A DNA stretch of 64,000 bases, taken from positions 841,001-905,000 of the forward strand of contig NZ_CP015136.1 of the NCBI RefSeq assembly GCF_001618865.1. Reading direction: 5' to 3'. Position 1 is the first letter of the stretch. Every line of letters begins with the position of its first letter. This DNA is from Luteitalea pratensis (GTDB taxonomy: Bacteria > Acidobacteriota > Vicinamibacteria > Vicinamibacterales > Vicinamibacteraceae). Below are positions 24,841 to 43,835 of this stretch, one piece after another. Below the pieces are notes generated by a model, which was given only the letters and a program-made list of their open reading frames with translations, searched no databases and was not told the DNA's origin. Position numbers and translations under genes: made by a program.

Positions 24841-24896
24841 TTACACTATGACCACGCACTTCGGTCGATAACTCAGCCTTTTTGCGAGGCGCACTG

Positions 24897-26471
24897 ATGA
24901 ACGTGCTGCTCCTCTCGATGCCGGACGCGTTCGAGCACACACCCACGATCGGCATGTGCATGCCGAACGGCGCCCTCGCGTCGCTGGCCGGCAACATCGA
25001 TCCGCATCACAGTGTGGCGATTGCCGACCTCGTGCTCGTCCAGGGCAACGTCCTCGCGACGGTCGAACGGCTGGTTCGCGAGCATCGCCCTGACGTCATC
25101 GGCTTGTCCTGCATGACCTTCCAACGACGGACGGCGCTCAGGCTCATCCGCCGGCTGCGGGCCTGGTGCCCTGGAGCGCCCCTGGTCGCCGGTGGGTACG
25201 ATCCGAGCCTGGCCACCGATGCCTGGACCGGCGCCGACGGCGTCGACTTCGTGGTCCGCGGGGAAGGAGAGGCCACGTTCCGAGAACTGCTTCGCGCACT
25301 CGAAGCCTGCGAGAGCATCGGCGGGGCCGACGGTCGAGCCGGCCTTGTCGACGGTAGGGCCGGCTCTCCGAGCCCGGCCCGTTGTGACGCGCTCGCCAGC
25401 ATCGCTGGACTGACCTGGCGAGCTGCCGACGGTAGCGTCGTCCACAACGACGCACGCCCGGCGTCGCATCGACTCGACGAAACGCTCGCCATCCCGCGCC
25501 GGTCCGCGCGGGTGCTGCAGGGCTACACCTTCCTCGGCGATCAGGTGGACGTGGTCGAGACCTCGCGCGGGTGCACGTTCGACTGCAGCTTCTGCTCGAT
25601 CATCGAGATGCGCGGCCGGAACTTCTACACCCGCGAGATGGCCCGCGTCATCGCCGACATCACCGACGCGCGCGATCACGGCGCGAAGGTCATCTTCCTG
25701 GTCGACGACAACGTCACCCTCGACGTGCGTCGCTTCGAGGCCCTCTGCGAGGCGATCATCGAGGCTGACCTGCACCACCTGCGCTACCTGGTGCAGGGGA
25801 TGACGTCAGCGTTCGCTGCGCACGGCGAACGCCTCGCGCCGCTGATGAAGCGCGCCGGCTTCGAGTACGTGTTCCTCGGTATCGAGAACGTGCTCGAGGA
25901 CGATCTCGCCTTCCTCAGGGCGTCGGCCAAGAACGCGCAGCGCGAAGGCGGACGGCGCGTCGGCAACGCGACGCTCGCGGCCATCGACATCCTGCACCGC
26001 CACGGCATCTTCGTGGTGGGAGGGCTCATCGTCGGCAATCCCGACGACACCCACGACGCCATCGAGGCCAACCTCGCGTTCGCGCGGGCACACGTGGACT
26101 GGCCTTACATCCAGCACCCGACGCCGTACCCGCGCACGCCCATGAACGAGGACTTCCGTCGCCGCGATCTCGTGGTCAACGAGCGCCTCGAGGAGTACGA
26201 CGGCACGACGGCGGTGGTCCGGACCACGCACCTGGGCGCCGACGACATCGAGTTCCTGCGGTGGAAGTCCGAACGCTGGATGAAGGTGCGGCACATGCCG
26301 GCGGTGCTGCGCCGCCGCCCGGGCTTCGTGCTCCGGAACGCACCGATGCTGCTGGCGCACACGTTCCGCGGCAGCACCTGGCGATCGATGATCGGGCTGG
26401 AGTCGTCGCGCGACACCTTCCGCCGTTACAAGGCGATTCGTCAGCGCGAGCGGGAGTACGTTGCCGAATAG
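24897..26471 (+). CDS. B12-binding-domain radical SAM protein
   Basis: About 524 residues starting MNVLLLSMPDAFE. Residues 1-135 resemble a cobalamin-binding Rossmann domain (ADLVLVQGNVLA, VAGGYDPSLA, DFVVRGEGEATF) without the usual D-x-H-x-x-G motif. The radical SAM cluster motif is CTFDCSFC (Cys226, 230, 233). This is the BchE/HpnJ-type architecture used for methyl or ring chemistry on lipids, hopanoids or cofactors. Residues about 139-163 (GGADGRAGLVDGRAGSPSP) are encoded by a GTAG hairpin repeat and interrupt the usual linker. No pathway partner is adjacent. Confidence 0.85.
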   Translation: MNVLLLSMPDAFEHTPTIGMCMPNGALASLAGNIDPHHSVAIADLVLVQGNVLATVERLVREHRPDVIGLSCMTFQRRTALRLIRRLRAWCPGAPLVAGGYDPSLATDAWTGADGVDFVVRGEGEATFRELLRALEACESIGGADGRAGLVDGRAGSPSPARCDALASIAGLTWRAADGSVVHNDARPASHRLDETLAIPRRSARVLQGYTFLGDQVDVVETSRGCTFDCSFCSIIEMRGRNFYTREMARVIADITDARDHGAKVIFLVDDNVTLDVRRFEALCEAIIEADLHHLRYLVQGMTSAFAAHGERLAPLMKRAGFEYVFLGIENVLEDDLAFLRASAKNAQREGGRRVGNATLAAIDILHRHGIFVVGGLIVGNPDDTHDAIEANLAFARAHVDWPYIQHPTPYPRTPMNEDFRRRDLVVNERLEEYDGTTAVVRTTHLGADDIEFLRWKSERWMKVRHMPAVLRRRPGFVLRNAPMLLAHTFRGSTWRSMIGLESSRDTFRRYKAIRQREREYVAE

Positions 26472-41134: not shown

Positions 41135-41231
41135 CTGTCGTCAGGGCACGCTTACGTGTCCTGCCCGACTGCGGTGCCGGGTTCCCCCTGCCGGAACCCG
41201 GTGCCCCCAAGGTCGACGGCTCCGTTACAAG

Positions 41232-41345
41232 GTAGCGGCCCGCTGTCCCAGCGGGCCGAGCCACGACCGCACCATGTCCTCGTCGGGCTGGGACAGCCCG
41301 ACGCTACCCTCGCCGATTCCCGATTCCCCGATCCCCGATTCGTGG
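41232..41345. repeat. Inverted pair of GTAG hairpins (BIME-like) and short heptamers
   Basis: GTAGCGGCCCGCTGTCCCAG with closing arm at 41232-41259, plus strand, and a perfect 10-bp-stem hairpin CGTCGGGCTG-GGA-CAGCCCGACG followed by CTAC at 41281-41307, which is the same element on the minus strand. Both carry the core CTGTCCCAG or its complement. CGATTCC/CCGATCC heptamers follow at about 41311-41342. The two hairpins form the classic head-to-head REP doublet layout. The rest of the 41135-41473 gap shows no gene. Confidence 0.88.
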
Positions 41346-41473: not shown

Positions 41474-41941
41474 ATGCTCCGCCTCTCCAAGAAGACCGAC
41501 TACGCCCTGATGGCCATGAAGCATCTCGCGCTTCATGGGGACCGCGGCGCATCGAGTGCCCGGGAGATCGCCGAGCAGTACGACATTCCTGCGGAATTGA
41601 TGGCCAAGGTGCTGCAGCGACTCGTGCGGCGGGGCCTCCTGCTCTCGCATCAGGGCACCCGCGGCGGCTATCAGCTCGCGCGCCCGGCGACGCTGATGTC
41701 GGTCGCGGACGTGATCCAGGCCGTCGACGGCCCGCTCACCGTGACCGCCTGCTCGACCGACGACCACGCCTGCGACCAGTACACGAAATGCAGCGTGCGT
41801 GACCCGCTCTGGCGCATCAAGGACCGCATCCTCACCGCCCTTGCCGCCTGCACGCTTGCCGAAATCGTGGACGACACCAGCGTGCCGACCATTCCGGTGA
41901 CGCTCTCGCGCCGTACACCTGCGCCCGTCACCGAACGCTGA
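41474..41941 (+). CDS. Rrf2/IscR-family Fe-S cluster-sensing regulator
   Basis: A 155-residue winged-helix regulator starting MLRLSKKTDYALMAM. Residues about 25-65 are the recognition helix and wing (QRLVRRGLLLSHQGTRGGYQL). Three Cys in TACSTDDHACDQYTKC (about residues 94-109) lie at IscR/SufR-like spacing for a labile cluster. It sits just upstream of the cysteine desulfurase and A-type carrier and probably controls them. Downstream is a heptamer array. Confidence 0.9.
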   Translation: MLRLSKKTDYALMAMKHLALHGDRGASSAREIAEQYDIPAELMAKVLQRLVRRGLLLSHQGTRGGYQLARPATLMSVADVIQAVDGPLTVTACSTDDHACDQYTKCSVRDPLWRIKDRILTALAACTLAEIVDDTSVPTIPVTLSRRTPAPVTER

Positions 41942-41959: not shown

Positions 41960-42056
41960 GTCGGCCTTCGTCAGTCGGCCTTCGCGTCCAGCGTCCAGCG
42001 TCCAACGTCTAGCGTCCAACGTCTAGCGTCCAGCCTCAAGCATTAGGCGTTAACCC
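41960..42056. repeat. GTCCAGC heptamer array
   Basis: GGCCTTC-type units at about 41962-41986, then CGTCCAG/CGTCCAA/CGTCTAG for about eight copies to about 42032, then CCTCAAG/CATTAGG/CGTTAAC to the next start codon, all on a 7-bp period. It forms the leader of the desulfurase gene and leaves no room for a normal ribosome binding site. Confidence 0.9.
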
Positions 42057-42057
42057 A

Positions 42058-43365
42058 GTGTCCCGCCTCTATTTCGACGCCCACGCGACCACACCCTGCG
42101 ACCCGCAGGTGGTGGACGCGATGCTGCCGTTCTTCAGCGGACAGTTCGGCAACGCCGCAAGCCTCCAACATGCCTACGGGTGGGAGGCACAGCAGGCCGT
42201 CGAATCGGCCCGTCAGCACGTGGCGGACCTGGTCGGCGCCCGCCTGCGCGACGTGATCTTCACGAGCGGCGCCACCGAGGCCAACAATCTCGCCCTCTGC
42301 GGTGTAATCGACGCCGTTCGCGCTGCGGGCGGCCGACCCCGCTCGGCGACTCCCGACTCCCGACTTGGCACCCCGGAGCCGGCAGACGGAGGCGGACGTC
42401 CTCATGGGCCGCGCTCGGAGAGCGGGCCCTACCGGACTCCGGACCCGATTCCCGACTCCCCAGTCCCGAGTCGCGATCCCCATGTGCTGACGGTGGTGAC
42501 CGAGCACCCGGCGGTCCTCGAGCCCTGCGCAGACCTCGAGTCGCAGGGCGTCCGGGTGACGCGCGTGCCCGTGCGTCCCGACGGGCTCGTCGACGTTCCC
42601 GGCATGGCCGAGGCCATCACGCCGGGCACGACCGTGGTCTCGGTGATGGCCGGCAACAACGAGATCGGCGTCATCCAGCCGCTCGCCGACATCGCGCGTC
42701 TCGCCCACGCGGCGGGGGCCTGGTTTCACACCGACGCATCACAGGCCGCAGGGTTGGTTGCCATCGACATGGCGGCGATGGGCATCGACCTGCTCTCGTG
42801 TACCGCACACAAGATCTACGGCCCGAAGGGCGTCGGCGCCCTGGTGGTCCGGAGGGCGTCGAAGGTCGCGATCGCGCCCCGCCAGCGCGGCGGCGGGCAC
42901 GAGCGTGGCCTGCGCTCCGGCACCCTCAACGTGCCGGGCATCGTCGGGTTCGGCGAGGCGGCGCGCCTCGCGCGGGCTCGGCGTTTGACGGATGCGGCGC
43001 GCCTGGCGACGCTCCGCGACCGGTTGTGGGGACGATTGCAGTCGGCGTTGCAAGACGTGCACCTCCGCGGAGCCGAACAGCCGCGGCTGCCGCACAACCT
43101 CAACGTCGGGTTCGACGGCCTCACGGGACGCGACCTGGTGCTCGGGCTCACCGACGTCGCCGTGTCCCCCGGCGCGGCCTGTGCCTCCACATCAGCCGAG
43201 CCGTCGCATGTGCTGATGGCCCTCGGCCTGAGCGAGCCCGAGGCCCGGTCCTCGCTCCGTTTCGGTCTGCTGCGGACCACGACCGAGGCCGAGGTGGACG
43301 AGTTAGCCGACAGGGTCATTCGACTCGCCTCGGCACTTCGATCACAGCGCGCCGCGGCTCGATGA
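42058..43365 (+). CDS. iscS: Cysteine desulfurase (IscS/NifS class) carrying a repeat-derived insert
   Basis: PLP enzyme that takes sulfur from cysteine for Fe-S cluster assembly. 435 residues: FTSGATEANNLAL, EHPAVLEPC, TDASQAAG, TAHKIYGPKG with the Schiff-base Lys, and GAACASTSAEPSHVL with the catalytic Cys. The start is GTG. Residues about 91-141 (nucleotides 42328-42480) have no counterpart in the family. They are encoded by GACTCCC heptamers, a GTAG hairpin on the minus strand (42407-42432), and GATTCCC/GACTCCC heptamers. The insert is Pro/Gly/Ser-rich and lies between the Ala-Thr-Glu helix and the strand before the EHPAVL motif, a surface loop position. Confidence 0.92.
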   Translation: MSRLYFDAHATTPCDPQVVDAMLPFFSGQFGNAASLQHAYGWEAQQAVESARQHVADLVGARLRDVIFTSGATEANNLALCGVIDAVRAAGGRPRSATPDSRLGTPEPADGGGRPHGPRSESGPYRTPDPIPDSPVPSRDPHVLTVVTEHPAVLEPCADLESQGVRVTRVPVRPDGLVDVPGMAEAITPGTTVVSVMAGNNEIGVIQPLADIARLAHAAGAWFHTDASQAAGLVAIDMAAMGIDLLSCTAHKIYGPKGVGALVVRRASKVAIAPRQRGGGHERGLRSGTLNVPGIVGFGEAARLARARRLTDAARLATLRDRLWGRLQSALQDVHLRGAEQPRLPHNLNVGFDGLTGRDLVLGLTDVAVSPGAACASTSAEPSHVLMALGLSEPEARSSLRFGLLRTTTEAEVDELADRVIRLASALRSQRAAAR

Positions 43366-43508: not shown

Positions 43509-43835
43509 ATGTACATCACACTCGACGCCGGACGGCAGATACACAAGTTGCTCGAGAAACAGGGCATGCAGGGCGGTGGCCTGCGGGTGGGGGTGAAGGC
43601 GGGCGGGTGCAGCGGCCTGAGCTACGTCTTCGCGTGGGAACCGCAGCCGGCCGAGCAGGATCAGGTGTTCGAAGGCCCCGAAGACTCGCGCATCTATGTG
43701 GATCCGAAGAGCTATCGGCTCCTCGAGGGCACGCAGATCGACTACGACACCAGCCTCATCAGCAAGGGATTCGTGGTCGTCAACCCGAAAGCCAAGGCGA
43801 CCTGCGGCTGTGGCACGTCGTTCTCCCTGAGCTAG
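43509..43835 (+). CDS. iscA: A-type Fe-S carrier protein (IscA/ErpA/HesB)
   Basis: A 108-residue carrier with the three conserved Cys: one in KAGGCSGLSYVF (about residue 35) and two in ATCGCGTSFS at the C-terminus. Length and spacing are standard. It follows the desulfurase in the same direction. The scaffold IscU is not nearby, so this small group may serve a SUF-type or reduced system encoded elsewhere. No clear ribosome binding site; a strong inverted repeat lies just upstream. Confidence 0.93.
   Translation: MYITLDAGRQIHKLLEKQGMQGGGLRVGVKAGGCSGLSYVFAWEPQPAEQDQVFEGPEDSRIYVDPKSYRLLEGTQIDYDTSLISKGFVVVNPKAKATCGCGTSFSLS

Follow-up and report, generated by a model that had tools for sequence, protein, structure and literature searches.

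A loop of a cysteine desulfurase in Luteitalea pratensis probably derived from a palindromic repeat and heptamer repeats

The window analysed is a 64,000-nt stretch of Luteitalea pratensis DNA, positions 841001–905000 of a genome of 7,480,314 bases in one contig (NZ_CP015136.1), and includes the gene for an IscS-type cysteine desulfurase, here called iscS. The gene carries an in-frame insert for which a first-pass annotation had proposed a composition of heptamers, a minus-strand GTAG hairpin and more heptamers. This composition was borne out by the positions of GACTCCC, by the identity of bases at a distance of 7 nt (lag-7 identity) and by the match of the hairpin to a pattern for repetitive extragenic palindromes (REPs). 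In window coordinates, the gene and the parts of the insert are as follows.

42058–43365, plus strand: IscS-type cysteine desulfurase gene bearing the insert, 435 aa (open reading frame (ORF) call, domain and Protein Data Bank (PDB) matches)
42340–42477, plus strand: in-frame insert, residues 95–140, 46 codons versus 3 in the nearest congener, G004 (loop comparison, lag-7 identity)
42348–42368, plus strand: left heptamers GACTCCC GACTCCC GACTTGG, on the hairpin side of the REP (sequence, lag-7 identity)
42369–42404, plus strand: 36 nt separating the left heptamers from the REP
42405–42434, minus strand: GTAG REP, with GTAG at 42429–42432 and a bulged stem at 42406–42429; the plus strand codes for GPRSESGPYR (pattern, genome search, folding)
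42435–42480, plus strand: right heptamers, degenerate GAYTCCC units touching the GTAG end (sequence, lag-7 identity)
42444–42467, minus strand (template): G-quadruplex motif of four GGG runs with 4-nt loops, the only one found in iscS (motif search)

The frame of iscS is open across the insert, from a GTG start at 42058 to the stop codon at 43363–43365. The product matches Aminotran_5 (2e-75) and scores best with the IscS models of NCBIfam, yet under their cut-offs; its best PDB relatives are human NFS1 and then E. coli IscS, and the NFS1 alignments, as printed, are broken between residues 85 and 138 of the iscS product. An alignment of 54 sequences shows no variation at Lys252, Cys375 and His150, which we take to be the lysine that binds pyridoxal phosphate (PLP), the catalytic cysteine and the PLP-stacking histidine, respectively, of a group I (IscS/NifS) cysteine desulfurase. 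The open frame and the intact catalytic Lys and Cys had both been noted in the first-pass annotation.

The insert is situated after the ANNLAL helix and before the strand leading into TEHPAV. Locally, iscS reads GGRP-(46 residues)-PHV whereas G004 reads GGRP-TTA-PHV, a net difference of 42 residues; the size first estimated was about 51 codons. The same alignment interval comprises 61 residues in iscS versus 17–19 in the orthologues of three congeneric genomes (G001, G002 and G004), which are 74–80 % identical to iscS and all lack the insert; the locus is syntenic with that of G001. From the fourth congeneric genome, G003, the matches listed reach at most 49 % identity. We compared the loop with 109 other entries, consisting of 29 loci of relatives within the order (those scoring highest among 59 searched, as far as loci were available) and 80 of 109 further relatives; among these entries L009 and L042 are one record twice, others may be duplicates too, and L114 is a fragment without the region. 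As claimed before, the loop is short in other desulfurases: it has 12 residues in 64 of the 109 entries, 49 fewer than in iscS, and exceeds 24 residues in a single one. This entry, a desulfurase from a metagenome-assembled genome of Deltaproteobacteria (L043, 3001–4284), has a 61-residue loop at the same site with a sequence unrelated to the insert, which indicates that the site is permissive. The same insert in unrelated genera, named in the first-pass annotation as the sign of ordinary protein evolution, was not seen among these 109 entries.

The hairpin has the features of a REP: GTAG stands 5′ of an imperfect palindrome whose 10-bp stem carries a single bulged base and closes in a loop of 3 nt, with a folding energy of -19.2 kcal/mol (ViennaRNA). 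It fits the pattern GTAGN{5,9}CTSTCCSAG, which occurs 408 times in the genome versus 6 times for the reversed control. Among 60 genomes, that of L. pratensis included, the congeners G004, G002, G001 and G003 contain 134, 57, 12 and 3 matches, whereas each of the 55 genomes outside the genus has 0–5 (reversed control, 0–11). The GTAG REP family is abundant in this genus only. When the genome was searched with the insert (141 nt), 40 of 415 first-look candidates were scored and 47 matches were obtained, the insert itself and 46 others. Only the insert matched at full length among the candidates scored; 39 of the 46 were limited to the REP plus a few bases around it, and the other seven extended into, or fell in, heptamers, with 75–86 % identity. 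In 19 of the 46 there was identity to the iscS REP over 27–30 nt, bulge included. One identical copy begins 5 nt after the stop codon of a gene for a REP-associated tyrosine transposase (RAYT; locus L041), whose product scores 86.1 bits with NF047646 (REP_Tyr_transpos; cut-off 80). A second RAYT, in L038, is likewise above this cut-off. Next to the latter gene is a long tandem array of a REP-bearing unit (L038, 266–1492), into which a repetitive open frame continues from the gene. For E. coli, the bulge of the stem is described as necessary for RAYT activity on its REP, and GTAG as participating in the choice of the cleavage site (PMC8266576).

GACTCCC occurs in the insert at 42348–42354, 42355–42361 and 42454–42460. 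Defining heptamer repeats as at least two tandem units of GGGAATC or (GGGANTN)n, following PMC4692102, the insert contains a GACTCCC dimer at 42348–42361 and GATTCCC-GACTCCC at 42447–42460. The single heptamer GACTCCC is not over-represented in the window (6 seen, 12.5 expected), and Tandem Repeats Finder (TRF) at score 50 called no array in the insert. Lag-7 identity is 0.56 at 42341–42379 and 0.68 at 42434–42480, whereas elsewhere in the gene it peaks at 0.47 and 0.475; 0.56 and 0.68 are reached at 2.4 % and 1.3 % of all positions in the repeat-rich window. The 7-nt periodicity of the insert is thus real. In the genome there are 203 copies of the tandem dimer GAYTCCCGAYTCCC and 0 of its reversed control, and heptamer-dimer matches number 598 in G001, 183 in G004 and 0 in G002. 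This patchiness across congeners indicates that REPs and heptamers vary independently. G001 combines its 598 heptamer dimers with 12 REPs, whereas the window's genome has 203 and 408. The period was a multiple of 7 in 16 of 25 non-overlapping tandem arrays in the window, 16 of 26 in 100 kb of G001 and 10 of 17 in 26 loci from other genera of the family and order; in a wider set of 534 kb it was so in 15 of 43, with a period of 21 in 11 of those 15.

Around REPs, enrichment in 7-nt periodicity was chiefly on the GTAG side. We counted GGGARTC-like dimers, with at most 3 mismatches and within 60 nt, in 108 contexts from the L. pratensis genome (the window, pattern-listed loci and loci from further sequence searches, with heptamer-chosen and insert-chosen loci excluded) and in 73 from G004 (30 loci and 40 stretches). 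In the former, 10 contexts, iscS itself being one of them, had GGGARTC on the GTAG strand 5′ of GTAG and 1 had the opposite polarity, versus 3 and 2 for the two polarities 3′ of the hairpin; the same four classes in G004 gave 9, 1, 1 and 0. Counted by locus over both genomes, the GTAG-side polarity is 18 versus 2 (two-sided binomial, p = 0.0004), and with at most 2 mismatches the four classes were 5, 0, 2 and 1 in L. pratensis and 7, 0, 0 and 0 in G004. Random 60-mers, searched on one strand with at most 3 mismatches, gave 6/762 and 8/741; as intergenic position was not controlled for in this set, the polarity is better founded than the excess over background. On the GTAG side, lag-7 identity reached at least 0.55 in 14 of the 108 contexts, among which are three identical copies in L265, and in 6 of the 73 from G004; on the other side it did so in 5 and 0, and the control lags 6 and 8 gave 0 or 1. 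Both here and in G004, GGGARTC heptamers near REPs are thus placed preferentially next to GTAG and in a single polarity.

Genes other than iscS also contain these repeats in frame. Three of them are:

24852–26468, plus strand: B12-binding/radical SAM gene with an in-frame REP at 25354, in sense orientation (coding-potential test, domain match)
L196, 1024–3000, minus strand: nucleoside hydrolase gene with the REP-coded peptide GPRSESGPY, as in the iscS product
L207, 122–2254 (G000:C1:1704721–1706853), minus strand: LigD-type ligase gene with two in-frame REPs in the inter-domain linker

A coding-potential test trained on this genome placed 7 of 118 sampled REPs in frame within genes, six genes in all, versus 253 of 560 random positions, which indicates that REPs avoid genes and that a minority is tolerated. 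The 118 REPs were not a random sample: they came from pattern places up to about 1.87 Mb, from heptamer-chosen loci, from insert-like loci and from the window itself, and the heptamer-chosen and insert-like loci contributed no intragenic case. The remaining genes with an in-frame REP encode a ligase-associated exonuclease (TIGR04122) and a gamma-glutamyltranspeptidase. With six sampled genes carrying in-frame REPs and four others called with in-frame heptamers (L204, L214, L232 and L242, the last without a Pfam match), the iscS case is not special. In G004, 2 of 72 REPs tested were intragenic. Different genes read the REP in different frames. The early proposal that the iscS peptide RSESGPYR is repeat-made was supported, and GPRSESGPY recurs in the nucleoside hydrolase. 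In the radical SAM gene, the loop that holds the REP is variable and shorter than its G001 counterpart; congeners have LigD linkers of about the same length, and that of the G004 orthologue is REP-derived in its own right (L365). An in-frame REP is thus not always a net gain, which speaks against a simple story of lengthening.

An AlphaFold2 model of the iscS product, built with 54 sequences, had a mean predicted local distance difference test (pLDDT) of 89.4, with values of at least 90 at 356 of 435 residues. It fell below 50 at residues 98–100 and 103–136, as well as at 376–378 next to the catalytic Cys, so that the insert is predicted to be a disordered loop. In the model, helix 72–89 and strand 142–146 lie on either side of it. 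Since this strand leads to the active-site His150, the model puts the insert at the opposite strand end, judged by the order of elements and not by measured distance. Comparison with NFS1/IscS structures gave template modelling (TM) scores of 0.84–0.86 on query length, and the fold search merely confirmed the IscS fold. The insert peptide is rich in Pro, Gly, Ser and Arg; residues 91–141 have 25 % proline versus 5 % elsewhere, and a net charge of 0. Surface mutants of IscS are named in the context of ferredoxin and frataxin binding in PMC3750173, from which we draw no claim for the insert. Its effect on catalysis is probably neutral.

The surroundings of iscS contain:

41229–41341, both strands: intergenic composite of a plus-strand REP (GTAG at 41232), a minus-strand REP (GTAG at 41307) and heptamers from 41315 (sequence, TRF, pattern searches)
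41474–41941, plus strand: Rrf2-family (IscR-like) regulator gene, flanking iscS on one side (ORF and domain matches)
41984–42041, plus strand: GCGTCCA-type heptamer array in the spacer between regulator and iscS (TRF)
43509–43835, plus strand: IscA/SufA-type Fe-S assembly protein gene, flanking iscS on the other side (ORF and domain matches)

The insert had been said to have exactly the intergenic layout. This holds only in part: the neighbouring composite has two REPs in inverted orientation, which belong to a different subfamily, and its heptamers are on a single side. This intergenic region, 1 kb upstream of iscS, was considered as the source copy and rejected, its subfamily being CTGTCCCAG versus CTCTCCGAG in the insert.

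We consider the insert to be repeat DNA turned into protein (probability roughly 80 %), that is, a RAYT-family REP with slippage-grown heptamers in a permissive loop, the frame being kept by selection. Its anatomy, its absence from three congeners, a repeat family specific to the genus and an identical copy beside a RAYT gene all favour this reading, as do the in-frame siblings in other genes, the low model confidence in the loop and the low dN/dS (nonsynonymous to synonymous substitution ratio) of iscS. A REP of a GTAG family presumably spread by RAYT would have arrived in iscS at a surface loop that the known congeners have in a short form; on either side, replication slippage would have lengthened runs of GGGARTC/GAYTCCC heptamers, and only those total lengths that kept the frame would have survived, because the enzyme stayed under purifying selection. 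Several observations weigh against this reading. The insert is known from one genome, and transposition was not seen; the heptamers are degenerate and slippage is not directly visible in them; and the 36 nt at 42369–42404 match no assigned repeat. Divergence of the loop in the congeners made it impossible to delimit a target-site duplication, an exact empty site or exact breakpoints (DNA alignment was poor and codons were compared by eye). In addition, the dN/dS ratios are approximate.

The first-pass annotation had the REP and its heptamers as one composite that can move or grow within coding DNA. That they were inserted whole as such a unit is unlikely, in spite of the polarity of GGGARTC-type heptamers 5′ of GTAG: the copies scored have only the REP in common, with few reaching heptamers, and movement of the whole composite is unsupported, as nothing but the insert itself matched at full length among the places scored. 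Besides, 98 of 108 contexts in L. pratensis and 64 of 73 in G004 have no GTAG-side heptamers in that polarity (at most 3 mismatches), the left heptamers of iscS are on the opposite side of the hairpin, as in just the 3 and 2 contexts counted above for the two polarities, and the heptamer dimers of G001 far outnumber its REPs, so that the two repeats spread at least partly independently. No more probable, and resting on a modest count, is a polar two-part element in which RAYT would act at the GTAG end and heptamers would be seeded or captured there in one orientation, a landing in a loop thereby starting a growing disordered linker.

A role at the level of the nucleic acid appears more doubtful still. 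The REP hairpin and the template-strand G-quadruplex motif, a G3-N4 motif that may fold, could tune iscS expression by slowing transcription or by changing the stability of the mRNA; this motif is the sole one found in the gene, the hairpin has the folding energy of -19.2 kcal/mol given above and oligonucleotides of the same heptamer type form G-quadruplexes in vitro (PMC4692102), but three congeneric orthologues manage without the insert. It is very improbable that the gene is decaying and tolerates the insert while another desulfurase does the work. The genome does encode two further IscS-like paralogues with 44–49 % identity; however, the frame and conserved residues are intact, the regulator and iscA-like neighbours are kept, and the dN/dS of iscS (0.15 versus G004, 0.16 versus G002 and 0.21 versus G001) is within or under the range among those three congeners (0.17–0.27), the ratios being rough at a dS of 0.7–1.0. 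Least credible of all is ordinary protein divergence leading to a long loop that looks repetitive by chance. The loops of the congeners do vary and one unrelated long loop exists, but evolution at the protein level would not be expected to yield 30-nt identity to a DNA repeat family with hundreds of pattern matches and 7-nt periodicity as well.

Derivation from repeat DNA has precedents, as both in-frame GTAG REPs and heptamer repeats are already in print. GTAG REPs within genes are reported for several species, many of them in genes for DNA synthesis and repair; dimers or groups make up over half of these inserts and code for 20–30 aa, reaching 43–82 aa in clusters (PMC3733652). The L. pratensis family resembles them in its high-copy, GTAG-tagged hairpins, its RAYT partner, its intragenic minority and its DNA-repair targets, here the LigD-type ligase and the ligase-associated exonuclease. 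It differs in that a single REP lies within heptamers, in its acidobacterial host and in having as target a cysteine desulfurase, a term absent from the main text of that paper. The heptamers GGGAATC and GGGGAYT are described from Xanthomonas and Nostoc as mostly intergenic (in two Xanthomonas genomes, 7–11 % overlap an ORF at least in part), as forming G-quadruplexes in vitro and as having no gene-regulation role identified (PMC4692102); the phrase "extragenic palindromic" occurs in that source in the introduction and reference list only. The heptamer of iscS is the same, GATTCCC being the complement of GGGAATC; unlike in Xanthomonas and Nostoc, heptamer arrays with many other unit sequences are present here too, the iscS repeat is short and degenerate, and the GGGARTC type tends to abut the GTAG end of REPs. 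Palindromic elements of Rickettsia are also found in frame within protein genes and read as peptide (PMC10969869). Those elements measure about 150 bp, whereas the repeat shared here is about 30 nt plus heptamers and its frame varies by gene, and an assignment to them was rejected on size. Constant-size tandem repeats were likewise dropped, their units being of 20–21 or 52 nt (PMC8161180). No paper on junctions between REPs and heptamers, or on a cysteine desulfurase that contains a REP, was seen in a literature search with subscription papers mostly outside its scope.

The conversion of repeats into protein is thus a known route, and the iscS insert is ordinary in kind and neat in detail. It is a clear example of how a loop in a conserved enzyme can be built from two repeat classes that lie mostly between genes; congeners serve as controls, and several sibling cases exist in the same genome. 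The case further shows that the GGGARTC heptamers of Xanthomonas and Nostoc are present in an acidobacterial genus too. Because they tend to lie beside the GTAG of REPs with one polarity, the question of how heptamer arrays arise can be put to the test. If the two repeats did form a polar element, the genus would possess a system that repeatedly remodels protein loops, of which IscS, LigD and the nucleoside hydrolase would be current products.
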